Assembly (NCBI GenBank): GCA_016870865.1
Contig: VGAC01000005.1
Location: 1 to 64,000 of the forward strand
DNA from: Actinomycetota bacterium
GTDB lineage: Bacteria; Actinomycetota; Acidimicrobiia; Acidimicrobiales; Ilumatobacteraceae
Direction: 5' to 3'
DNA length: 64,000 nucleotides
The translations under genes and the position numbers were made by a program. Positions 3,049 through 18,620 of this stretch are shown one piece after another (the stretch's first letter is position 1; each line of letters begins with the position of its first letter). The notes beneath the pieces were generated by a model that saw nothing but the letters and a program-made list of their open reading frames with translations, made no database searches and had not been told where the DNA came from.

Positions 3049-3103
3049 GGTGACCGGGCCCCTCCCGCAGGCCCCGCGCGGGTCGGGCCGGCGGTTGAGC
3101 TCT

Positions 3104-3119
3104 CTGGGGGGCTCCCCAG
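3104..3119 (+). terminator. Hairpin after the aminotransferase gene
   Basis: CTGGGG (3104-3109) pairs with CCCCAG (3114-3119) around a 4-nt loop, 56 nt after the aminotransferase stop. There is no T-tract, so it would be a GC-rich, weakly supported terminator. Confidence 0.4.
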
Positions 3120-3156
3120 CCCGATCGCCGGGTCGCTACGGCCGCCCCCCAAATGC

Positions 3157-3186
3157 TTGACCCGAACACCTGTTCGTAACTACAGT
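3157..3186 (+). promoter_or_regulatory. SOS promoter and LexA operator of recA
   Basis: A -35 element TTGACC (3157-3162) and a -10 element TACAGT (3181-3186) are 18 nt apart. A perfect palindromic LexA-type box CGAACACCTGTTCG (3163-3176) lies between them. The same box occurs upstream of lexA/LysM in this window. LexA bound here would block RNA polymerase directly. A second small palindrome, TGTTCGAACA (3192-3201), sits at the expected transcription start. Confidence 0.9.
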
Positions 3187-3318
3187 ACGGGTGTTCGAAC
3201 AGCCCCGTGCAACACCCTCTCCGTAGGGTCCGCACACACTCAACAAGTCCCACCGTCGCCCCTCGGGGCCGTTCCAGAGTCAATTCCAGCGAAACAAACA
3301 CAGAAAGACGGGCACATC

Positions 3319-4407
3319 ATGGCCAGCTCAGCAAGCAACCGCTCCGGCGACATCGTGAACAACTCGAACAACGCGGGCGACCGCGACAAAGCCCTCGACG
3401 CGGCTCTGGCCCAAATCGACAAGCAGTTCGGCAAGGGCTCGATCATGCGCATGGGCGAGAAAACCGGCATGGCGATCGAGTCCATCAGCACCGGAGCGAT
3501 CCCGCTCGACATCGCCCTCGGCGTGGGCGGCCTGCCCCGCGGCCGCGTGGTCGAGATCTACGGTCCCGAATCCTCGGGAAAGTCCACCCTCGCGATGCAC
3601 GTCGTCGCCGAGGCCCAGCGCAACGGCGGCGTCTGCGCCTACATCGACGCCGAACACGCGATGGACCCCATCTATGCCCGCTCCATCGGTGTCGACATCG
3701 ACCAGTTGCTGATTTCGCAGCCGGATACCGGTGAACAGGCGCTCGAAATCGCCGACATGCTCATCCGCTCGGGTGCGCTCGACGTCGTCGTCATCGACTC
3801 GGTTGCGGCACTCACACCGCGTGCCGAAATCGAAGGTGAAATGGGCGACAGCCACGTGGGTCTACAGGCCCGCCTCATGAGCCAAGCGTTGCGCAAAATC
3901 ACGGCCAATCTGAACAAGACAAACACGATTGCGATCTTCATCAACCAGTTGCGCGAAAAGATCGGTGTCATGTTCGGTTCGCCCGAAACAACGCCCGGCG
4001 GGCGTGCGCTCAAGTTCTACTCGTCGGTGCGTCTCGACATCCGTCGCATCGAGTCGATCAAGGACGGAGCCGAAGTGGTGGGCAACCGCACGCGCGTCAA
4101 GGTGGTGAAGAACAAGGTCTCGCCACCTTTCCGCCAGGCCGAGTTCGACATCATGTACGGCAAGGGCATCAGCCGCGAAGGTGCGCTGCTCGACTTGGCA
4201 GTCGAGATGGGGATCGCCAAGAAGTCGGGTGCTTGGTTCACCTACGAGGGCGAACAACTCGGCCAGGGGCGCGAGAACGCCAAGTCGTTCCTCACCGACA
4301 ATCCCGAAATCATGATGGAAATCTCCGAAAAGATCCGCAACCAGGCGGGTCTGAACGGCGGTGCCGAATTCACCCCGGCCGACGACGAACCCATCGACCT
4401 CGACTGA
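3319..4407 (+). CDS. recA: Recombinase RecA
   Basis: RecA forms filaments on single-stranded DNA, drives strand exchange, and triggers LexA self-cleavage during the SOS response. The protein has 362 residues, typical of the family. It shows the Walker A motif GPESSGKST (residues 82-90), Walker [13 protein letters not shown] (about 154-165), the L2 region with [14 protein letters not shown], and an acidic C-terminal tail ending PIDLD. The ATG at 3319 was chosen because upstream in-frame residues are not RecA-like and lie in the SOS promoter region. In most actinobacteria recX follows recA; here miaB follows and no recX is seen. Confidence 0.98.
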
Positions 4408-4459
4408 CGCCACAAGTCCTCTCCCCGGCTGCACGCCACTGTCTGTGCGGGAACATCGC

Positions 4460-4483
4460 GGCCCGGGCCCGACGGCCCGGGCT
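4460..4483 (+). terminator. GC-rich hairpin between recA and miaB
   Basis: CCCGGGCC (4462-4469) pairs with GGCCCGGG (4474-4481) around loop CGAC, with two further pairs (G-C, G-U) outside. It lies 53 nt after the recA stop. There is no U-tract, as is common for actinobacterial terminators. Confidence 0.65.
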
Positions 4484-4512
4484 GTGTGCTGCTCGGTAGC
4501 CTGATTTTCAAG

Positions 4513-8992: not shown

Positions 8993-10128
8993 CGGGGATG
9001 GGCGAGGGGACTGCGGTGAACAAGGGTTTCGTCCCGCCGCCGTACCCCTACGACCGTCTCGACGCTTTCGCCGCGCATGGTCGCGCGATGGAGGGTGGCT
9101 TGGTCGACCTTTCCATCGGTACTCCGTGCGACCCGCCGTTGGCCGCGGTGGTCGCCGCACTCTCGAACTCGAACACCGAACGCGGCTACCCCGCCAGCAT
9201 CGGCAGTGACGCGTTGCGGCGCGCGGCCCTCGATTGGATGAAGCGCCGTTTCGACCTCGACGTTCCCGCCGCCGACGTTGCCGCCTGTATCGGCAGCAAG
9301 GAGTTCGTGGCAACGACGCCGCACTGGCTGCGCCTGCGCACCCCCGACAAGGACACCGTGCTGTACCCCGCGGTGGCCTATCCCACTTACGAGATGGGAG
9401 CGACGTTGGCCAACTGCCGGGCGGTCGCCGTGCCGATGCGTGCCGACGGAACGATGGACCTCGATGCCATCACCGCCGAAGACGCCTCGCGAGCACTGAT
9501 GCTGTGGGTCAACAGCCCCAGCAATCCAACAGGCCACCTCGACGACCTCGGTGCGGCCGTTTCCTGGGGTCGAGCGAACGCGGTTCCTGTCTTTAGCGAC
9601 GAGTGCTACGCCGAATTCACCTGGACCACGTCGCCCACGTCGGCACTTCAGTATTCGCTCGAGGGAGTGGTAGCCGTGCACTCGTTGTCGAAGCGATCGA
9701 ACCTCGCGGGTCTTCGGGTCGGCTTCTATGCGGGCGACCACGACATCGTGGATTATTTGAAAGAGGTGCGCAAGCACGTCGGCATGATGCTGCCGGGACC
9801 CGCGCAAGCCGCCGGTGTTGCCGCTCTGGCCGACAACGCGCACGTGGCCGAACAACGCGATCGCTACCTGCGTCGCCTCGAGACCGTTCGCGCAGTGGTG
9901 GGGAAGTGGTCCGGGTTCGACATTGCGATGCCGGCGGGCGGGTTCTATCTCTGGTTCGATGCACATGATGGCTGGGCATTTGCCGAGCGTCTTGCGCGCG
10001 AGGCCGGCACGCTCGTGTCGCCGGGCGACTTCTACGGGGCAGGTGGTGCGAACAATGTGCGCATCGCCGTCGTGCAGCCCGACGACAAGATTGCCCTCAT
10101 GGCCAAGCGCCTCGGCATCAGCATCTGA
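8989..10128 (+). CDS. dapC: Succinyldiaminopimelate aminotransferase (DapC type)
   Basis: A fold-type I PLP aminotransferase of 379 residues, assigned to the N-succinyl-LL-diaminopimelate aminotransferase step. It has NSPSNPTGHLDDL (family asparagine), SDECYAEF and the Schiff-base lysine at about residue 235 in HSLSKRSNLAGLRVG. Linkage to dapF and the typical actinobacterial DapC sequence pattern support the assignment over a general aspartate aminotransferase. The GTG at 8989 overlaps the hflX stop; an ATG at 8998 is a possible alternative start. Confidence 0.85.
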   Translation: MTGMGEGTAVNKGFVPPPYPYDRLDAFAAHGRAMEGGLVDLSIGTPCDPPLAAVVAALSNSNTERGYPASIGSDALRRAALDWMKRRFDLDVPAADVAACIGSKEFVATTPHWLRLRTPDKDTVLYPAVAYPTYEMGATLANCRAVAVPMRADGTMDLDAITAEDASRALMLWVNSPSNPTGHLDDLGAAVSWGRANAVPVFSDECYAEFTWTTSPTSALQYSLEGVVAVHSLSKRSNLAGLRVGFYAGDHDIVDYLKEVRKHVGMMLPGPAQAAGVAALADNAHVAEQRDRYLRRLETVRAVVGKWSGFDIAMPAGGFYLWFDAHDGWAFAERLAREAGTLVSPGDFYGAGGANNVRIAVVQPDDKIALMAKRLGISI

Positions 10129-10143
10129 GGCGTCGGCACGACG

Positions 10144-10782
10144 ATGAGCGACGTCCCGGCGTTTCCGGCACCCGACCCCGAGTCGCGGCGGCAGCCGCCA
10201 TCACAGGGTCTTTCGCAAACAAGGCCGCGGCGGCGGCGGCGGTGGTTTGCGTTCGTGATGCTCGTTGTGACGCTCGCCGCGGCTGGTGCTCTCTTCACCG
10301 AGGGCACACGCCGCGCGGGCAACGCTGCCGCGGGAATGGTTCGCATCAGCGCGGGCTGCCGTGTGCCGGTGACGCTGCGTGATTCGGGTGATTTCTTCGT
10401 CTACATCGAACAGGGCCCGGTGCCGATGCCCGACAGTGCCAACTGCACGAACGCGGGTCTCCCAATGACGAACCCCCACGGCATTCCGATGATCGGCTTT
10501 GCCGTTGCGACCCCCGACGGGGTCGAGCGCCGTGTCACCCAAGTGCGCCCGAATCGTCGCTACGACCTTGGTCGCAACGACGGGTTGCTCACGTCGCGCT
10601 TTACTGGTCGCGCGGGCGAAACAGTCATCGTCGGACTGGTCGCCGACTCACCCGATGTGGCTGTCGCCATCGGTGAGAACGTGTTTTCCCTGCGTCTGCC
10701 GTGGCGCATCGCCTCCGGCATCGTTCTCGCGATCGGTCTGTTGTTGACGGTGGCGCTCTTTAGAGCCGGCGCAAAACGGTGA
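10144..10782 (+). CDS. Hypothetical membrane protein with two transmembrane segments
   Basis: A 212-residue protein with no family recognised. It begins with a Pro/Arg-rich cytoplasmic stretch ending in RPRRRRRW, followed by a first transmembrane segment at about 34-52. An extracytoplasmic domain of about 130 residues with two cysteines (SAGCRVPV, ANCTNAG) comes next, then a second transmembrane segment near 187-206. It starts 15 nt after dapC and its 3' end overlaps the end of lexA on the other strand by 23 nt. The topology suggests a surface-facing domain held by both ends. Confidence 0.75.
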   Translation: MSDVPAFPAPDPESRRQPPSQGLSQTRPRRRRRWFAFVMLVVTLAAAGALFTEGTRRAGNAAAGMVRISAGCRVPVTLRDSGDFFVYIEQGPVPMPDSANCTNAGLPMTNPHGIPMIGFAVATPDGVERRVTQVRPNRRYDLGRNDGLLTSRFTGRAGETVIVGLVADSPDVAVAIGENVFSLRLPWRIASGIVLAIGLLLTVALFRAGAKR

Positions 10783-11389
10783 CAACCTTGCCGAAGACCG
10801 ACACTTCGGCGGCGGGGAACACCATGGGTTGGAGGCGCGGGTTGGCGGGGATGAGCGTGATGTTCGCCCCGGACTTCTTGAAAGTCTTGACCGTCGCTTC
10901 GTCGCCGGGAATGCCGGCCACGACGATGTCGCCGTTGCGCGGTGTCGACTCCTGGCGCACGACCACGTAGTCGCCGTCGAAAATGCCGGCCTCGACCATC
11001 GAGTCGCCGCGCACGCGCAACATGAACAGTTCACCCTCGCCGGTGAAGTCAACGGGCAGGGGAATCAACTCCTCGACGTTCTCGTTGGCCAGAACGTCGG
11101 TGCCCGCGGCGACATCGCCCACGAGTGGTATGTGGCGCGCCGGGCGGCGTTCCATGGCAACCCCGATGCTGGAGTCGAAGCGCACCTCGAGGGCGCGGGG
11201 CTTGGTGGGGTCTCGTCGCAGGTAGCCGAGCTTTTGCAGCGTTGCGAGGTGATTGTGCACCGTTGCCGGGCTGTTGAGACTCACCGCCTCGCCGATCTCC
11301 CGCACGGAGGGGGGGTAGCCCCGATCGCGCATGCTGGTGTCAATGAACTCGAGAATGGCCCGTTGACGGGCGGTGAGGGCTACGGCCAT
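10760..11389 (-). CDS. lexA: SOS repressor LexA
   Basis: LexA represses SOS genes and cleaves itself when RecA filaments form. The 209-residue protein has an N-terminal winged helix (REIGEAVSLNSPATVHNHLATL, seen in pieces at about residues 30-50). The Ala95-Gly96 cleavage site lies in DVAAGTD, and the Ser130/Lys168 catalytic dyad in RGDSM and EATVKTF. ATG 11389 is chosen over the longer in-frame start at 11509, because the extra residues run through the operator region. Three LexA boxes lie upstream, so the gene is surely autoregulated. It is divergent from an SOS-type LysM gene. Confidence 0.97.
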   Translation of the reverse strand: MAVALTARQRAILEFIDTSMRDRGYPPSVREIGEAVSLNSPATVHNHLATLQKLGYLRRDPTKPRALEVRFDSSIGVAMERRPARHIPLVGDVAAGTDVLANENVEELIPLPVDFTGEGELFMLRVRGDSMVEAGIFDGDYVVVRQESTPRNGDIVVAGIPGDEATVKTFKKSGANITLIPANPRLQPMVFPAAEVSVFGKVVTVLRRL

Positions 11390-11397
11390 ATGCCCAG

Positions 11398-11411
11398 CGT
11401 ACGCCTGTTCG
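11398..11411. promoter_or_regulatory. Degenerate fourth LexA-like box
   Basis: CGTACGCCTGTTCG keeps one perfect half-site (GTTCG) and a degraded partner. It is 8 nt upstream of the lexA start codon. It may be a weak operator or a relic. Confidence 0.35.
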
Positions 11412-11421
11412 CCCCCCAAAT

Positions 11422-11435
11422 CAAACACCTGTTCG
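11422..11435. promoter_or_regulatory. LexA operator 1 (lexA proximal)
   Basis: CAAACACCTGTTCG differs by one base from the perfect box CGAACACCTGTTCG found at recA. It lies 32 nt upstream of lexA and would lie in the leader or core promoter of the minus-strand transcript. Confidence 0.75.
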
Positions 11436-11443
11436 CCCTGGCC

Positions 11444-11472
11444 TTGACAATCGAACACCTGTTCGGTAATTT
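11444..11472 (+). promoter_or_regulatory. SOS promoter of the LysM gene with LexA operator 2
   Basis: TTGACA (11444-11449) and TAATTT (11467-11472) are separated by 17 nt, a near-ideal sigma-A promoter on the plus strand. A perfect LexA box CGAACACCTGTTCG (11452-11465) fills the spacer, the same layout as at recA. Confidence 0.9.
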
Positions 11473-11475
11473 GAG

Positions 11476-11489
11476 CGAACACCCGTTCG
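11476..11489. promoter_or_regulatory. LexA operator 3
   Basis: CGAACACCCGTTCG, a palindromic LexA-type box starting 24 nt from operator 2. It is just downstream of the LysM-gene -10 element and about 90 nt upstream of lexA. Confidence 0.85.
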
Positions 11490-11545
11490 TTATCGTTCCC
11501 ACAACCCACCCAAACCGTTTACCCGCCCCCCACCAAAGGAGCCCG

Positions 11546-11896
11546 ATGATGGCCGTTGTTTTCAACACCCAGACGATTCCTTCCACCAGTTTTGGCCCAC
11601 AGTTGGCTCGCCCCCGCCGGCCCCAGAGGGTCTATGTTCGCCGGCGGGTCGCCGTGGCGGCATTCTGCGCGCTCCTGGTGGCCGTTGGTCTCTTTGCCCG
11701 CGGCGCGGGTGCCGAAAACACCCGTCCCATCGGCGCGGTCGAGATGCCGCGCACGATCACTGCCGTACAGGGCGACACCCTGTGGGCCATCGCCCACCGT
11801 CTGGCGCCACGGGGTGATGTCATGGGGTTTTTGGATCGTCTCGTTGAATTGAACGGCGCCCGCCTCATGCCCGGCCAACAGATCCGTATCCCCTAG
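11546..11896 (+). CDS. SOS-controlled LysM membrane protein (YneA/ChiZ-like)
   Basis: A 116-residue protein with a basic N-terminus (RVYVRRR), one transmembrane segment at about 34-51 and a C-terminal LysM peptidoglycan-binding domain at about 70-115 (VQGDTLWAIAHRL, then LMPGQQIRIP). It is divergent from lexA and has a perfect LexA box in its promoter. This matches Bacillus YneA and mycobacterial ChiZ (Rv2719c), small LysM proteins beside lexA that stop cell division during SOS. The division-inhibitor role is inferred from that context. A strong AAAGGAG Shine-Dalgarno sequence (11535-11541) supports the ATG at 11546; a second ATG follows at once. Confidence 0.88.
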   Translation: MMAVVFNTQTIPSTSFGPQLARPRRPQRVYVRRRVAVAAFCALLVAVGLFARGAGAENTRPIGAVEMPRTITAVQGDTLWAIAHRLAPRGDVMGFLDRLVELNGARLMPGQQIRIP

Positions 11897-11919
11897 GAAA
11901 CCCTCCCTACGATGGGGTG

Positions 11920-12369
11920 ATGCGCTGTCCGGTGTGCGCCTCCGATGACACCAAGGTCATCGACTCTCGGGTGGCCGAGGAGGGAGCCTCCATCCGTCGG
12001 CGTCGGCAGTGCCCGCTGTGCGGTTTTCGATTCACCACCCGCGAACGCCTCGAAGAGGTCTCGCTCACGGTCACCAAGCGCAGCGGGTCACGGGTGCCGT
12101 TCGACCGGGCCAAGGTCACCGCAGGTGTCAGCGCCGCCACCAAGGGCCGGCCCGTCGATGCGGCGACCATCGAAGCGCTCGCCGATCGAGTCGAGGAAAT
12201 CCTCCGCGCCATTGGCAACGAGGTGACTTCGGCGCAGGTGGGTCACGCCGTACTCGAACAGTTGCGGGGCCTCGACGAAGTTGCGTACCTGCGTTTCGCA
12301 AGCGTCTACAAGAACTTCGACCAGGCCGCCGACTTCCGTCGCGAGCTTGCGTTGCTCGAAAAAAATTGA
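11920..12369 (+). CDS. nrdR: Transcriptional repressor NrdR
   Basis: NrdR senses ATP/dATP and represses ribonucleotide reductase genes. The 149-residue protein has the N-terminal zinc ribbon with Cys3, Cys6, Cys31 and Cys34 (CPVC, CPLC) and the ATP-cone domain (VTKRSGSRVPFDRAKV onward). TACGAT at 11908-11913 ends 6 nt before ATG 11920, suggesting a leaderless transcript; GTG at 11917 is an alternative. nrdJ lies about 3.4 kb downstream and carries NrdR-type boxes. Confidence 0.96.
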   Translation: MRCPVCASDDTKVIDSRVAEEGASIRRRRQCPLCGFRFTTRERLEEVSLTVTKRSGSRVPFDRAKVTAGVSAATKGRPVDAATIEALADRVEEILRAIGNEVTSAQVGHAVLEQLRGLDEVAYLRFASVYKNFDQAADFRRELALLEKN

Positions 12370-12372
12370 ACT

Positions 12373-13023
12373 TCACGCCCGCGAATAGCGGAGGAACAAG
12401 AACCCGTCGTCTTCGAGAACGTGTTGCAGCACGAATCGGCGGAGCAACTCTCGCGCACCGTTCGTTACGCGCGGTGATTCGCCGCCCACGACGTTCGGGG
12501 AAATCGTGAGGTTGATTTCGTCGACCAAGTCCGCATCGATCATTGCGGCATTCAACTGCGCGCCACCCTCGAGCTGCAGCAACCGTCCGCCCGCCGTGGA
12601 TACGACGGAGAACAAGTCGACCACCCCGCTTGTCTCGGGGGTCACGAGGTATCCCGCACCCGAGGTAAAGAGGGGAGTCGTCGTGTCGACACGGCCCGAG
12701 CGGGACACCACCGCCACGCGCTGGCCTTGTTTGGACGGCTTGCCGTAGCCGTCGGAGCGGGCGGTTTGTGCCCCGACCAGGACGGTGTCGGCCACGCGTC
12801 GAAGCGCGAGCAAAACGCCCTGATCGGTAGGGCTGGAAAGCGGCCGTGAACTGCCGCCGACGGCGATCGAACCGTCGATGCTGGCCACCATGCACATGCC
12901 CACCCAGGGCCGCGGTCCGCGCGGGTCATTTGGGGTGGGGCGCTCGACGCCGTAGGCCTCGTCATGGGTGATTTCTCGTCCGACGCGGCCGAGAAAATCG
13001 TGGTAGGAGTAGAGCAGCTTCAC
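12373..13023 (-). CDS. RibD C-terminal/dihydrofolate reductase-like pyrimidine reductase
   Basis: A 216-residue NADPH-dependent reductase of the RibD_C family. It contains MCMVASIDGSIAVGGSSRPLSSPTD near residue 45 (shown in part), LRRVADTVLVGAQTARSDGYG, and LEGGAQLNAAMIDADLVDEI near the C-terminus, all typical of RibD_C reductases. No deaminase domain is attached. It could supply 5-amino-6-ribosylaminouracil phosphate reduction for riboflavin, or act on another substrate, as many stand-alone actinobacterial members do. The GTG start at 13023 lies 9 nt after TAGCCT (minus, 13038-13033). It converges with nrdR, with a 3-nt gap. Confidence 0.8.
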   Translation of the reverse strand: MKLLYSYHDFLGRVGREITHDEAYGVERPTPNDPRGPRPWVGMCMVASIDGSIAVGGSSRPLSSPTDQGVLLALRRVADTVLVGAQTARSDGYGKPSKQGQRVAVVSRSGRVDTTTPLFTSGAGYLVTPETSGVVDLFSVVSTAGGRLLQLEGGAQLNAAMIDADLVDEINLTISPNVVGGESPRVTNGARELLRRFVLQHVLEDDGFLFLRYSRA

Positions 13024-13074
13024 AGTACGGCGAGGCTACAGGTGGCCGGTGAAAGAGCGGGGGCGAAGGCGACC

Positions 13075-15333
13075 ATGAACGGATTCACGAAAAACGGCAC
13101 GGCCTTGCGCACCTGTCCGCTCTGTGAAGCGGGCTGCGGACTCGAAATCACCGTGAAGAACGGTTCGGTCGCGCGCATTCGCGGTGACATCGACGACGTC
13201 TTTTCGCACGGGTACATCTGCCCGAAAGGAAGCACGCTCAAACAATTGCACGACGACCCCGATCGTCTCCGCAAGCCGTTGGTGAAGCGCGACGGCGTCC
13301 ATGTCGAAGTCGAATGGGACGAGGCTTGGCGCGAGGTCGAACGAGGCTTGAGCGACGTCATCACGCGTCACGGTCGTGACGCGATTGCGACCTACATGGG
13401 GAATCCCTCCGCGCACAACCTCGGATCGATGACTTTTGGTCGCGTGGCGTTGCAGGGAATCGGCACGCGACAGCGCTACAGCGCCTCGAGTGTCGACCAG
13501 GCGCCGAAGCAACTCACCGGCGGGTTGATGTTCGGCACGGTGCAATCGGTGCCGATTCCCGACATCGACCACACCCACTATCTCCTCATGCTGGGAGCGA
13601 ACCCGTACGCGTCGAACGGCAGTCTGTGCACCGCCCCCGACTTTCCCGGTCGCCTCGAGGCGATTCTCGCCCGCGGAGGAAAGGTCGTCGTTGTCGACCC
13701 ACGACGCAGTGAAACCGCACAGAAGGCGAGCGAGTGGCTGCCCATCATTCCGAACGGCGACGCGCTGTTCCTCGCGGCGATCGCGCATGTGCTCTTCGCC
13801 GACGGGTTGGTGTCGGTCGGTGCGCACATTGCCCCGCATCTGAACGGTCTCGATGACATCCGCGCCGCAATGGAACGTTTCGCTCCGGAGGCGGTCGAGC
13901 GTGCATGCGGCATCGGTGCGCCGACAATTCGTCGAATTGCGCACGAACTCGCCAAGGCACCCACGGCAACGGTTTACGGGCGCATCGGCACCACGACCAC
14001 GGCTTTCGGTTCGACGACTTCTTGGTTGGTCGACGTGGTCAACACCCTCACCGGCAATCTTGACCGCGAGGGTGGTTCGCTCTTCACGCTGCCCGCCGCA
14101 GGCGGCGCCACGACCAAGGGTCAACCGGGCCGTGGCAAGGGTTTCGCATACGGCAAAGGCCATTCGCGCATCAAGGGTCTGCCGGAACTGATGGGTGAGT
14201 TCCCTGTCGCGATTCTTGCCGACGAAATCTTGACCGCGGGCGACGGACAAATCCGCGCAATGGTCACGCTCGCGGGGAATCCCGTGCTGTCGAATCCGAA
14301 CAGCGGAAAACTCGACCGTGCGCTCGCGTCGCTCGACTTCATGGTCAGTGTCGACATCTACCTGAACGAAACAACTCGGCACGCCGACGTCATTCTCCCG
14401 CCGCCCTCGCACCTACAGCGCGATCACTACGACGTGTTTCTCCTCGCGTTCGCCGTGCGCAACGTTGCGAACTACAGCCCCGCCGTGCTTCCCCTCGACG
14501 AAGGCCAACCCGACGAGTGGGAGATACTCGCCAAGCTCGGCATGATCGCCCAAGGTGCGGGTGCGAACGCCGACCCTGCCGTGGCCGACGACATGGCAAT
14601 CGCCAGCCTTGTTGGTTCCGCGGTGCGGGACCCTTCGTCGAACGTCTGCGGGCGCGACGCCGAGGAGCTCGTTGCGTCGCTCTCATCGACGGGCCGAAGG
14701 GGTCCGGCGCGAATGATCGATTTCATGTTGCGCACGGGTCCGTACGGCGATGCGTTTGGCGCCGCACCTGAGGGCTTGTCGCTCGACGTGTTGCTTGCAA
14801 ATCCGCACGGTGTGGACCTCGGTGCACTGCGTCCGCGCATTCCCGAAGTCATCCGAACCGCGTCGGGTCGTATCGAACTGGCGCCACCGCAGTTGCTCGC
14901 CGACGTCGATCGGTTGTGGGCGCATGCGACCGCAGTCGATGACGACAAGTTGATGCTCATTGGTCGACGGCACATTCGTTCGAACAACTCGTGGATGCAC
15001 AACATCAAGGTTCTCGTGAAGGGCAAGCCCCGCTGCACGCTGCAAATGCATCCAACCGATGCCGATGCGCGTGGCATCTCGGCCGGTCAAGCGGTTCGTG
15101 TGCGCAGCCGCGTGGGTGAGGTGCTCGCGCCTGTCGAGATCACCGACGACATCAGACCGGGCGTCGTGTCGCTGCCGCACGGTTGGGGTCACTCGGTGGC
15201 CGGTACGCGGCTGTCGGTTGCCGGCGAATACGCGGGGGTGAACTCGAACGTGCTCACCGACGAAGATCTCTTCGACCCCGTGTCGGGGACCAGCGTCCTC
15301 AACGGCATCCCCGTGGCGGTGAGGGCCGGCTGA
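13075..15333 (+). CDS. Molybdopterin-dependent oxidoreductase (DMSO reductase family)
   Basis: A 752-residue molybdenum bis-MGD enzyme of the formate dehydrogenase/nitrate reductase/BisC group. The N-terminal [4Fe-4S] motif is complete: Cys14, Cys17, Cys21 (CPLCEAGC) and Cys49 (YICPKG). Pterin-binding segments follow (MLGANPYASNGSL, VVVDPRRSETAQKASEWLPI in part), and a C-terminal molydop-binding domain begins near 625 (IGRRHIRSNNSWMHN). No Tat signal and no membrane or electron-transfer subunit is encoded nearby, so it is probably a cytoplasmic single-subunit enzyme of unknown substrate. The ATG at 13075 avoids overlap with the divergent gene. Confidence 0.85.
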   Translation: MNGFTKNGTALRTCPLCEAGCGLEITVKNGSVARIRGDIDDVFSHGYICPKGSTLKQLHDDPDRLRKPLVKRDGVHVEVEWDEAWREVERGLSDVITRHGRDAIATYMGNPSAHNLGSMTFGRVALQGIGTRQRYSASSVDQAPKQLTGGLMFGTVQSVPIPDIDHTHYLLMLGANPYASNGSLCTAPDFPGRLEAILARGGKVVVVDPRRSETAQKASEWLPIIPNGDALFLAAIAHVLFADGLVSVGAHIAPHLNGLDDIRAAMERFAPEAVERACGIGAPTIRRIAHELAKAPTATVYGRIGTTTTAFGSTTSWLVDVVNTLTGNLDREGGSLFTLPAAGGATTKGQPGRGKGFAYGKGHSRIKGLPELMGEFPVAILADEILTAGDGQIRAMVTLAGNPVLSNPNSGKLDRALASLDFMVSVDIYLNETTRHADVILPPPSHLQRDHYDVFLLAFAVRNVANYSPAVLPLDEGQPDEWEILAKLGMIAQGAGANADPAVADDMAIASLVGSAVRDPSSNVCGRDAEELVASLSSTGRRGPARMIDFMLRTGPYGDAFGAAPEGLSLDVLLANPHGVDLGALRPRIPEVIRTASGRIELAPPQLLADVDRLWAHATAVDDDKLMLIGRRHIRSNNSWMHNIKVLVKGKPRCTLQMHPTDADARGISAGQAVRVRSRVGEVLAPVEITDDIRPGVVSLPHGWGHSVAGTRLSVAGEYAGVNSNVLTDEDLFDPVSGTSVLNGIPVAVRAG

Positions 15334-15480
15334 CCCTGTCGAGGCCCGCCGTCCACACACGTCCACAGCGCAATCCCCCGAAAAACGGGGAAATTCACAC
15401 GGTTTTCCACTTCCCCCACACAGGCCCGCCCCCGTATCCTGAGCCTCCGCGGCGGTGTGTCGGCCAACGGGCGACAATCG

Positions 15481-15510
15481 TTGACAAAAGGTGAACAACA
15501 ATGCTGTAAT
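15481..15510 (+). promoter_or_regulatory. nrdJ promoter
   Basis: TTGACA (15481-15486) and TGTAAT (15505-15510) are separated by 18 nt. This is a strong sigma-A type promoter placing the start near 15517, inside the first NrdR-type box. Confidence 0.8.
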
Positions 15511-15511
15511 T

Positions 15512-15527
15512 ACCCAACCAGTTGTGG
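15512..15527. promoter_or_regulatory. NrdR-type box 1 (imperfect)
   Basis: ACCCAACCAGTTGTGG shares 13 of 16 positions with the perfect palindrome 42 nt downstream. It overlaps the likely transcription start of nrdJ. Confidence 0.65.
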
Positions 15528-15553
15528 ATCGCACCGCAATCGGGGGCGGAGAA

Positions 15554-15569
15554 CCACAACATGTTGTGG
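15554..15569. promoter_or_regulatory. NrdR-type box 2 (perfect palindrome)
   Basis: CCACAACATGTTGTGG is a perfect 16-bp palindrome. It fits the general NrdR box pattern CAC-W-A-N-AT-N-T-W-GTG. The centre-to-centre distance to box 1 is 42 bp, about four helical turns. Confidence 0.75.
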
Positions 15570-15758
15570 ATCCAGCGTCTTTGGAGACCTCTCCGGGGCG
15601 TCGGGGTCAACTTTGTTGATGTGGTGGTCTACTGCGCCCTCCTAGCGGAGTCCGTGGGTGACGCAAGTCACAAGCAATCGATTACCAAAGATAAAAACCA
15701 AGTCCGCACTCACGGAACACTCACAAAGTTCTCACGAAGAAAGCAAGGAAGGAACGAA

Positions 15759-18620
15759 ATGTCCCTCGCACCTGATCGTTTGTTCATCGGTATCCGTCGT
15801 CATTTCACCGATGCCGCCATGCACCCGTACGACACGGTCGTTTGGGAGCGGCGCGACGCCCGTATCACGAACTGGAAAGACGGCTCCGTTGCCTTCGAGC
15901 AGCGCGACGTCGAGATCCCTGCTTCATGGTCGCTCAACGCAACCAACATCGTTGCCCAGAAGTACTTCCGGGGGACGCTCGGCACGCCCGAGCGCGAGAC
16001 GTCGCTTCGCCAGGTCATTGATCGCGTGGCCGACACGATCGCCGACTGGGGCATCGAGGGCGGCTATTTCGTCGATGCCGACGAGGCCGAGGCGTTCCGC
16101 AACGAGTTGAAATTCATCCTCGTCACCCAGCGCGCAGCGTTCAACAGCCCCGTTTGGTTCAACATCGGTGTGAAGGGTGTGCCCCAGCAGGCGAGTGCGT
16201 GCTTCATCCTCGCCGTCGAAGACACGATGGCCGGAATTCTCAACTGGTACCGCGAGGAGGGCACGATCTTCAAGGGTGGCTCGGGTTCGGGCATCAACCT
16301 GTCGAACATCCGCTCCAGTTACGAGCACCTGCAGGGGGGCGGCACCGCGTCGGGTCCGGTCTCGTTCATGCGTGGCGCCGACGCGAGTGCGGGCACCATC
16401 AAGTCGGGTGGCAAGACGCGTCGTGCCGCGAAAATGGTCATCTTGAACGTCGACCACCCCGACGTCGAAGAATTCATCTGGTGCAAGGCCAAGGAAGAGC
16501 GCAAGGCCCGCGTGTTGCGCGACGCCGGTTTCGACATGGACCTCGACGGCGTCGACTCGTTCTCGATCCAGTACCAGAACGCGAACAACTCGGTGCGCAT
16601 CACCGACGACTTCATGAACGCCGTCATAGAAGACCGCGACTGGAACATGAAGGCTGTCACCGACGGCTCTACCGTGAGGACCGTGCGCGCCCGTGATCTG
16701 TGGCGTGAAATCGCCACGGCCGCGTGGGAATGCGCCGACCCCGGTCTGCAGTTCGACACCACGATCAACAAGTGGCACACCGCGCACGCGACGGGACGCA
16801 TCAACGGTTCGAACCCGTGTTCGGAGTACATGCACATCGACAATTCGGCCTGCAACCTCGCATCGTTGAACCTGCTCAAGTACCTAGACGAGAACGACAC
16901 GTTCAACGTCGAGGCGTTCAAGCACTCGGTCGAAGTGATGTTCACGGCCCAGGAAATCCTCGTCGGCCGCGCCGATTACCCGACCGAGAAGATCGGCGAG
17001 AACAGCGGCCTGTTCCGCCAGCTCGGCATCGGATACGCCAACCTTGGCGCATTGCTGATGGCGCTCGGCCTTCCCTACGACAGCAAGGAAGGCCGCTCGT
17101 GGGCGGCGTCGATCACCTCACTCATGACCGGCCACTCGTACGCAACCTCGGCTCGCACGGCCAGTCGCATGGGGCCCTTCGCTGGTTTCGCCGAGAACGA
17201 GAAGTACATGTTGAACGTTCTGCGGATGCACCGCGACGCCTCGTACGAGATCGAGAATCCCGATGTCGTACAGGCCGATCTGCTCCAGGCAGGACGTGAG
17301 GCGTGGGAAGCGGCAGTCCGCGACGGCGAGGAATACGGCGTACGCAACAGCCAGGCCAGTGTTCTCGCCCCGACCGGCACCATCGGTCTGATGATGGACT
17401 GTGACACCACGGGTATCGAGCCCGACCTTGGTCTGGTCAAGATCAAGAAGTTGGTGGGTGGCGGCACGATGTCGATCGTGAACCAAACGATCCCGCGTGC
17501 CCTGCGCCGTCTCGGCTACACGCCCCAGCAGGTCGACGACGTCATCGCCTACATCGACACGAACAAGAGCATCATCGGAGCGCCGGCCCTCAAGGCCGAG
17601 CACCTGCCGGTGTTCGCGTGCTCGATGGGTGACAACACGATCCACTACGAGGGTCACGTCCGCATGATGGGAGCGGTGCAGCCGTTCCTGTCGGGCGCCA
17701 TCTCAAAGACGGTCAACATGCCCGAAGAGGCGACCATCGAGGAGATCGAGGAGTTGCACGAGTTGTCCTGGCGTCTCGGCCTCAAGGCCGTGGCGATCTA
17801 CCGCGACAACTGCAAGGTCGCCCAGCCGCTCTCGACTGCAAAAAAGGACGACGAGACCACCGACGATGAGACCGACGCACCGACTGCAGTGTCCGCGGCG
17901 ACCAGCGTCGTCGAGCGGATCGTCGAGCGCGTCGTGGCCCAGCCCGTGCGCCAGAAGCTGCCCCGTTCACGCCGTGGTCGCACGTTCGAGTTCCGTGTCG
18001 CTGACTGCAAAGGCTTCGCCACGATCGGCGAGTACGAAGATGGTCGCCCGGGTGAGGTGTTCCTCACCGTGTCGAAACAGGGCTCGACCCTGTCGGGCAT
18101 CATGGACGCCTTCGCCAAGAGCATCAGTTACGGCCTGCAGTACGGCGTGCCGCTGCGGGCGTTCGTCGAGGCGTTCACCAACATGCGTTTCGAGCCGGCA
18201 GGCATGACCGACGATCCGGACATCCGCATTGCTTCGTCGATCATGGACTACCTCTTCCGTCGCCTCGCACTCGAGTACCTGAACTACGACGAGCGCGCCG
18301 AACTCGGCATCTTCAGCCGCGACGAGCGTCTGCAGCCGACCTTGCCCGGTGTCGAAGAGACGATTGTCGAGACCAGCATGGGCTCGGAGGTTGTCGCAGA
18401 CCCGAAGAGCGTCCCGACCGCCGCTGACCTCGCCGCGCAGTTGAAGTACGGTCTCGCACCGTCGGCGCCGAGTACAGACGACTCGCCGGCGGTGGGTATG
18501 CAGCGTCCGGCGGCCAAACTCAGCGATGCACCGATGTGCATGCAGTGTGGCATTCAGATGCAGCGCGCCGGCTCGTGCCACGCGTGCCCGTCGTGCGGTT
18601 CGACTTCCGGTTGCTCCTAA
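15759..18620 (+). CDS. nrdJ: Vitamin B12-dependent (class II) ribonucleotide reductase
   Basis: NrdJ reduces ribonucleotides to deoxyribonucleotides with adenosylcobalamin as radical source, without needing oxygen. The 953-residue protein shows the RNR barrel signatures NPCSEYMHIDNSACNL near residue 350, FKGGSGSGINLSNIRS, and APTGTIGLMMDCDTTGIEPD. Its C-terminal tail is cysteine-rich (CMQCGIQM, CHACPSCGS), as expected for the thiol relay. A 40-50 residue acidic and linker segment precedes the C-terminal part. ATG 15759 has a good AAGGAAGGAA ribosome site; the open frame upstream lies in the leader. NrdR boxes in the promoter indicate repression by NrdR. Confidence 0.96.
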   Translation: MSLAPDRLFIGIRRHFTDAAMHPYDTVVWERRDARITNWKDGSVAFEQRDVEIPASWSLNATNIVAQKYFRGTLGTPERETSLRQVIDRVADTIADWGIEGGYFVDADEAEAFRNELKFILVTQRAAFNSPVWFNIGVKGVPQQASACFILAVEDTMAGILNWYREEGTIFKGGSGSGINLSNIRSSYEHLQGGGTASGPVSFMRGADASAGTIKSGGKTRRAAKMVILNVDHPDVEEFIWCKAKEERKARVLRDAGFDMDLDGVDSFSIQYQNANNSVRITDDFMNAVIEDRDWNMKAVTDGSTVRTVRARDLWREIATAAWECADPGLQFDTTINKWHTAHATGRINGSNPCSEYMHIDNSACNLASLNLLKYLDENDTFNVEAFKHSVEVMFTAQEILVGRADYPTEKIGENSGLFRQLGIGYANLGALLMALGLPYDSKEGRSWAASITSLMTGHSYATSARTASRMGPFAGFAENEKYMLNVLRMHRDASYEIENPDVVQADLLQAGREAWEAAVRDGEEYGVRNSQASVLAPTGTIGLMMDCDTTGIEPDLGLVKIKKLVGGGTMSIVNQTIPRALRRLGYTPQQVDDVIAYIDTNKSIIGAPALKAEHLPVFACSMGDNTIHYEGHVRMMGAVQPFLSGAISKTVNMPEEATIEEIEELHELSWRLGLKAVAIYRDNCKVAQPLSTAKKDDETTDDETDAPTAVSAATSVVERIVERVVAQPVRQKLPRSRRGRTFEFRVADCKGFATIGEYEDGRPGEVFLTVSKQGSTLSGIMDAFAKSISYGLQYGVPLRAFVEAFTNMRFEPAGMTDDPDIRIASSIMDYLFRRLALEYLNYDERAELGIFSRDERLQPTLPGVEETIVETSMGSEVVADPKSVPTAADLAAQLKYGLAPSAPSTDDSPAVGMQRPAAKLSDAPMCMQCGIQMQRAGSCHACPSCGSTSGCS

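Follow-up and report, generated by a model that had tools for sequence, protein, structure and literature searches.

In the genome of a freshwater actinobacterium of the family Ilumatobacteraceae (order Acidimicrobiales), we found lexA divergent from a gene for a small LysM protein with one predicted transmembrane (TM) helix, and 92 bp between the two genes that hold four LexA boxes, two of them perfect and two with one mismatch. This TM-LysM gene is best read as an SOS septation inhibitor of the ChiZ/YneA type in Ilumatobacteraceae, whose product the cell very probably makes in response to DNA damage so as to halt division for a time; the inhibition of division itself we infer from the position and layout of the gene and from experiments on other species. 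The same arrangement has been found before in Bacillus and in Mycobacterium tuberculosis, and division-inhibitor genes syntenic with lexA have been described in print for Bacillus, Listeria, Mycobacterium, Corynebacterium and Staphylococcus (PMC6851548). What is new is its case in Acidimicrobiales, by which the lexA-divergent division-inhibitor module is extended to a large and mostly uncultured order; our comparison shows it to be distributed across the phylum Actinomycetota. A literature search among open-licence papers returned none on a lexA-LysM module in Acidimicrobiales and none on lexA together with nrdR and LysM.

The region between lexA and the LysM gene

The window, i.e. the whole stretch of 64,000 nucleotides that was analysed, contains lexA on the minus strand (10760..11389, 209 aa; NCBIfam lexA equivalog, 227.6 bits with a cut-off of 110.95; Pfam LexA_DNA_bind and Peptidase_S24), whose product is the sole LexA_DNA_bind match in the 1.95-Mb genome. 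The TM-LysM gene follows on the plus strand (11546..11896; 116 aa, or 115 from the second ATG). Searching with the pattern CGAACN4GTTCG and at most one mismatch, we located box A (11398..11411, CGTACGCCTGTTCG, one mismatch), box B (11422..11435, CAAACACCTGTTCG, one mismatch), box D (11452..11465, CGAACACCTGTTCG, no mismatch) and box E (11476..11489, CGAACACCCGTTCG, no mismatch). With eight such sites in the whole window, against a shuffle mean of 6.7, the total is not unusual; four of the eight, however, crowd into these 92 bp, and a chance cluster is ruled out by 200 dinucleotide shuffles, in which a 100-bp stretch never held more than two sites (the maximum was one in 193 shuffles and two in 7). 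An earlier note on this DNA had described lexA divergent from a LysM gene with three or four LexA boxes, which is borne out with the number four. All four sites that it listed are present, including the one at 11398 that it called degenerate; this box deviates at a single position, as does the one at 11422, and the idea that either is a decayed copy had to be given up, as the deviating bases are conserved and are themselves bases of promoter hexamers. The box that it had placed between the -35 and -10 elements of the LysM gene is indeed there, and is the 11452 box itself in the 17-nt spacer rather than a fifth one. A single strict period of the box array was not found, the spacings grouping at 24, 15 and 28-31.

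For comparison we used an order set (LexA in 138 of 148 genomes; 129 lexA loci from 128 genomes analysed, 10 genomes being omitted for partial or distant LexA matches or a lexA on another contig), a named set of 80 lexA loci of named LexA relatives, and a phylum set sampled evenly from Actinomycetota (LexA in 85 of 90 genomes; 76 lexA loci analysed, nine genomes being omitted, four of them already in the order set and five because their LexA matches were partial, distant or multiple). The closest named LexA relatives, at 92-94 percent identity (the next at 81 and below), come from metagenome bins, many of which are labelled Actinomycetota, Acidimicrobiales or Ilumatobacteraceae. LexA proteins 70-81 percent identical, together with the same module, also occur in public bins titled Bifidobacterium breve (L034, L036, L045, L049, L052, L083, L087), titles that look wrong.

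The lexA promoter consists of a -10 element TACGCT (11396..11401, minus strand), located 6 nt ahead of the ATG, and a -35 element TTGATT (11419..11424, minus strand), separated by a spacer of 17 nt. Box A overlaps the -10, to which its odd base belongs, and box B, which reads CGAACN4GTTTG on the lexA strand, overlaps the -35 such that its terminal TTG starts the hexamer. Boxes A and B thus look degenerate because their odd bases are promoter bases, and this fusion of operator and promoter accounts for which 'degenerate' LexA boxes are real. It is widely conserved: a TANNNT follows the box B form at exactly 17 nt in 57/68 cases in the order set, 62/71 in the named set and 32/40 in the phylum set, other spacers being rare. 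Among boxes with one mismatch in the order and phylum sets, A at position 2 was met 108 times and the mirror-image deviation 25 times, and of the 70 order and named loci whose lexA start looks leaderless, 58 have a box of the A form overlapping the -10. Since box A overlaps a -10 that lies 6 nt before the start codon, the lexA mRNA is probably leaderless in the clade of the window. In the named set the -10 is followed by an in-frame start at a distance of 4-9 nt at 52 of 66 loci, against 0.3 per control window, whereas the counts were near control in the order set (10/59 vs 7.7) and the phylum set (3/37 vs 4.7), so that a leaderless lexA as an order or phylum rule is unsupported. The same picture came from a previous version of this test (named 55/80 vs 1; order 15/127 vs 15; phylum 5/74 vs 10). 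For M. tuberculosis, experiments described in PMC2897130 place the beginning of lexA translation at the transcription start, i.e. the mRNA is leaderless.

On the other side, the LysM gene has a candidate promoter TTGACA-17-TAATTT on the plus strand (11444..11472; -35 at 11444-11449, -10 at 11467-11472), with box D within the spacer and box E over the expected transcription start, and a Shine-Dalgarno sequence AAAGGAG (11535..11541, plus strand). A strict sigma-70 scan requiring at least 4/6 matches in each hexamer did not flag this candidate, because TAATTT matches TATAAT at 3/6 positions. As, in addition, the layout of a TTGACA-type hexamer, a box in the spacer and a TANNNT recurs in just 13/109 order loci and 12/76 named loci, the real -10 may be another hexamer, for example the conserved TA-rich one right after box E (TATCGT, 11491-11496; mostly TACGGT in the relatives). 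No Rfam match was found within 9000-16500.

Boxes of the same kind mark other SOS genes. The genome has 13 perfect CGAACN4GTTCG sites, five of which have a purine as the sixth and a pyrimidine as the ninth base (R..Y), the form shown by 364 of the 397 order-set boxes. These five lie upstream of recA (3163..3176; RecA domain in 3100-4250 by Pfam), between lexA and the LysM gene (two sites), upstream of a cluster with a polymerase-IV-like protein, and upstream of a homologue of DNA polymerase III alpha that we read as dnaE2; the first gene of this polymerase-IV-like/dnaE2 cluster had no Pfam match. A one-mismatch box overlaps the ruvC start. For an actinobacterium this SOS set is ordinary. SOS regulation, as claimed in the earlier note, finds support in the clustering of the boxes, in the fact that throughout the order they keep their position and number, and in perfect boxes of this form at recA and upstream of the polymerase-IV-like/dnaE2 cluster, along with the one-mismatch box at ruvC. 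Judged from these sequence features, LexA control of both lexA and the LysM gene is strongly supported. We linked no SOS gene to the box-like sites at C7:53968, which falls within a typA/bipA gene, and at C16:21716, and a perfect box at 16810-16823, which has the centre CCGT instead of R..Y and lies inside the long ORF 15522-18620 (from its sequence presumably a ribonucleotide reductase gene), is probably due to chance. Behind recA, which ends at 4407, the stretch 4408-4485 leaves no room for recX before the next ORF starts at 4486; this ORF we take, from its sequence, to be miaB-like. Elsewhere the genome contains two adjoining WYL-domain genes (G000:C2:4203-5329; L292, L293), which possibly encode a further regulator of the damage response, PafB with PafC.

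Conservation across order and phylum

With the LysM protein as query we obtained matches in 104 of the 148 genomes of the order, and of the best 30 loci (the window included) 29 have a divergent lexA adjoining, while one stops at the contig end. Taking the order and named sets together, the LysM gene is divergent from lexA at 185 of 209 loci; where at least 350 nt lie upstream of lexA, as also for the box counts in the 300 nt upstream, the figures are 109/127 in the order set and 76/78 in the named set. The LysM model behind the presence counts, those of the phylum set included, was derived from the window protein together with its matches at the loci examined, so these counts favour its relatives. 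Order loci with a divergent LysM gene have 3.2 boxes on average, and the 300 nt upstream of lexA mostly contain 3 to 5 boxes with at most one mismatch, whereas a control stretch 600-900 nt away was free of boxes at 119 of 124 order loci.

The phylum set, in which 35 of 76 lexA loci have the LysM gene, shows that the number of boxes goes with this gene. Where at least 800 nt were available upstream, the mean number of boxes was 2.88 with LysM (n=34) vs 0.97 without (n=39; one box at 22 loci and none at 11), a difference with a Mann-Whitney p of 2e-9 that is merely a guide, the loci being related. Within the order the difference is small (3.2 with LysM vs 2.3 without, p 0.016), one reason being that a number of loci lacking LysM have retained a different gene in its slot. 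This slot, which the LysM gene occupies in the window, lies between lexA and nrdR, the usual next gene (11920..12369, plus strand; NCBIfam NrdR equivalog, 159.1 bits with a cut-off of 124.65). Given at least 1200 nt upstream, nrdR was found downstream on the same strand at 77/108 order loci and 14/34 phylum loci with LysM; it also stands next to Rv2719c in M. tuberculosis.

The TM-LysM protein and its known relatives

The protein encoded in the window begins with a basic N-terminus that closes with RRR before a single hydrophobic helix (residues about 27-53), and ends with a LysM domain (73-116) that reaches the last residue (Pfam, E 4.9e-5, 23.6 bits with a cut-off of 20.9). R33 and G76 are invariant in an alignment of 49 proteins, and the LysM domain has intact GDT and IxIP motifs. 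A structure prediction of modest confidence (mean pLDDT 67.4, pTM 0.36) gave a helix at 27-53 followed by beta-alpha-alpha-beta; fold comparison against the PDB yielded no match at E 0.001, though several of the best matches were LysM domains. From the basic residues and the predicted helix, the N-terminus would lie inside and the C-terminal part outside. Apart from LysM, Pfam and NCBIfam revealed no catalytic domain. The best NCBIfam match is YneA (NF010723, E 1.4e-5), extending over TM helix and LysM (profile positions 11-85 of 87), but at 24.9 bits it does not reach the curated cut-off of 60 for this equivalog. The likeness to ChiZ and YneA therefore lies in layout and probable action, and not in sequence membership of the YneA equivalog. 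Features of the YneA/ChiZ kind are the divergent position next to lexA, the four putative operators in a shared promoter region and the predicted single TM helix.

ChiZ (Rv2719c) of Mycobacterium tuberculosis occupies the same slot divergent from lexA with several SOS boxes between and, by the descriptions in PMC7355643 and PMC8151990, resembles the window protein also in the basic cytoplasmic N-terminus, the single TM helix and the C-terminal LysM. It is larger, however, with 165 residues and an N-terminus of 64, compared with 116 and about 30. According to PMC8151990 one SOS box in M. tuberculosis serves lexA and three more drive the Rv2719c operon; we took the designation Rv2019c-Rv2017c in that paper as misprints, because the legend of its Figure S6 has the rv2719c operon. 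The N-terminus and TM helix of ChiZ are reported to be sufficient for filamentation (PMC7355643), and in an older review its LysM is apparently not necessary (PMC3989709). YneA of Bacillus subtilis is likewise the product of a lexA-divergent SOS gene and has one TM helix and an outside LysM; besides falling short of the equivalog cut-off, the window protein differs from it in a longer basic N-terminus, and in the window the operator is fused to the lexA promoter. YneA is described as acting on FtsW, its TM helix binding TM7, and its glycan binding as requiring the LysM residues D46, T47 and I81 (PMC13396833). DivS of Corynebacterium glutamicum and SosA of Staphylococcus aureus are, in the account of PMC6851548, lexA-adjacent SOS division inhibitors; like the window protein they have a single TM helix, but in contrast to it no LysM.

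Proposed action, alternatives and slot proteins without LysM

We consider it likely that lexA and the LysM gene form a divergent SOS checkpoint module, in which LexA represses both promoters, DNA damage frees them and the TM-LysM protein pauses septation. In the undamaged cell LexA would occupy all four boxes, covering the lexA -10 and -35 at A and B, and the spacer of the LysM promoter and its start region at D and E, and would keep both genes off or low. Upon DNA damage, RecA-stimulated self-cleavage of LexA would open both promoters, and translation would proceed from the good Shine-Dalgarno site for the LysM gene and from a probably leaderless mRNA for lexA. The product would be inserted through its one TM helix with the N-terminus in and the C-terminus out, the basic N-terminus and the TM helix might join the septal wall-synthesis complex (FtsW/FtsI/FtsQ), and the LysM tip might grip nascent septal glycan, so that septation would be halted until LexA returns.

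An SOS-induced LysM protein might instead remodel or reinforce the wall during repair, with division not stopped. LysM domains bind wall glycans and the family is established in this role, and ChiZ was originally described as a wall hydrolase (PMC3989709). This claim has, however, been called a likely false positive (PMC7355643), the window protein has no catalytic domain beyond its LysM, and the natural slot proteins without LysM argue against wall binding as the sole role; we regard such a function as rather unlikely. More doubtful still is a LexA-independent damage control of the LysM gene by PafBC, whether as an addition to LexA or as the main control. Rv2719c is reportedly damage-inducible without dependence on RecA, and the genome has the two neighbouring WYL-domain genes mentioned above. 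A PafBC-like motif, which according to PMC8151990 is part of the control of Rv2719c, is nevertheless absent from the window promoter and was detected at 2/129 order loci and 10/76 phylum loci, making this control very improbable here. That all boxes serve the autoregulation of lexA alone, the LysM gene being a constitutive neighbour, we hardly believe: box B does go with lexA even at loci without a LysM gene, but in the phylum set such loci carry roughly one box instead of about three, and in the window one perfect box is inside the LysM promoter and another directly behind it.

At eight lexA loci with multiple boxes (at least 800 nt upstream), a single-TM protein without LysM takes the slot of the TM-LysM protein, with 2 to 7 LexA boxes kept. 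Those of L118, L124 and L128 (family f44), L119 (f24) and L121 (f3) have 89-147 residues and one strong TM segment, lie between the boxes and nrdR, and showed no LysM match in Pfam; f3 relatives of L121 (in G002, G061 and G101) match the LysM protein. At the phylum loci L267, L269 and L276 the slot protein ends in a TM segment, and a Pfam scan of those of L267 and L276 detected no LysM. Other multi-box loci without LysM, e.g. L127, L205, L208, L221 and L230, show no such protein. The eight proteins resemble DivS and SosA, which also have no LysM, and position, boxes and TM segment suggest that they are functional counterparts of the TM-LysM protein. There is perhaps an even chance that the lexA-nrdR slot has long housed an SOS checkpoint in Actinomycetota, with ChiZ not specific to mycobacteria, and that the cytoplasmic N-terminus and TM helix are the indispensable part of its protein, the LysM tip having been lost repeatedly while gene and LexA array were kept (L118/L124/L128, L121, L119), with a TM-ending protein in L267, L269 and L276 and box B providing the TTG of the lexA -35 phylum-wide. 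YneA needs its LysM and ChiZ reportedly does not; the natural proteins without LysM offer a set for deciding which part stops septation.
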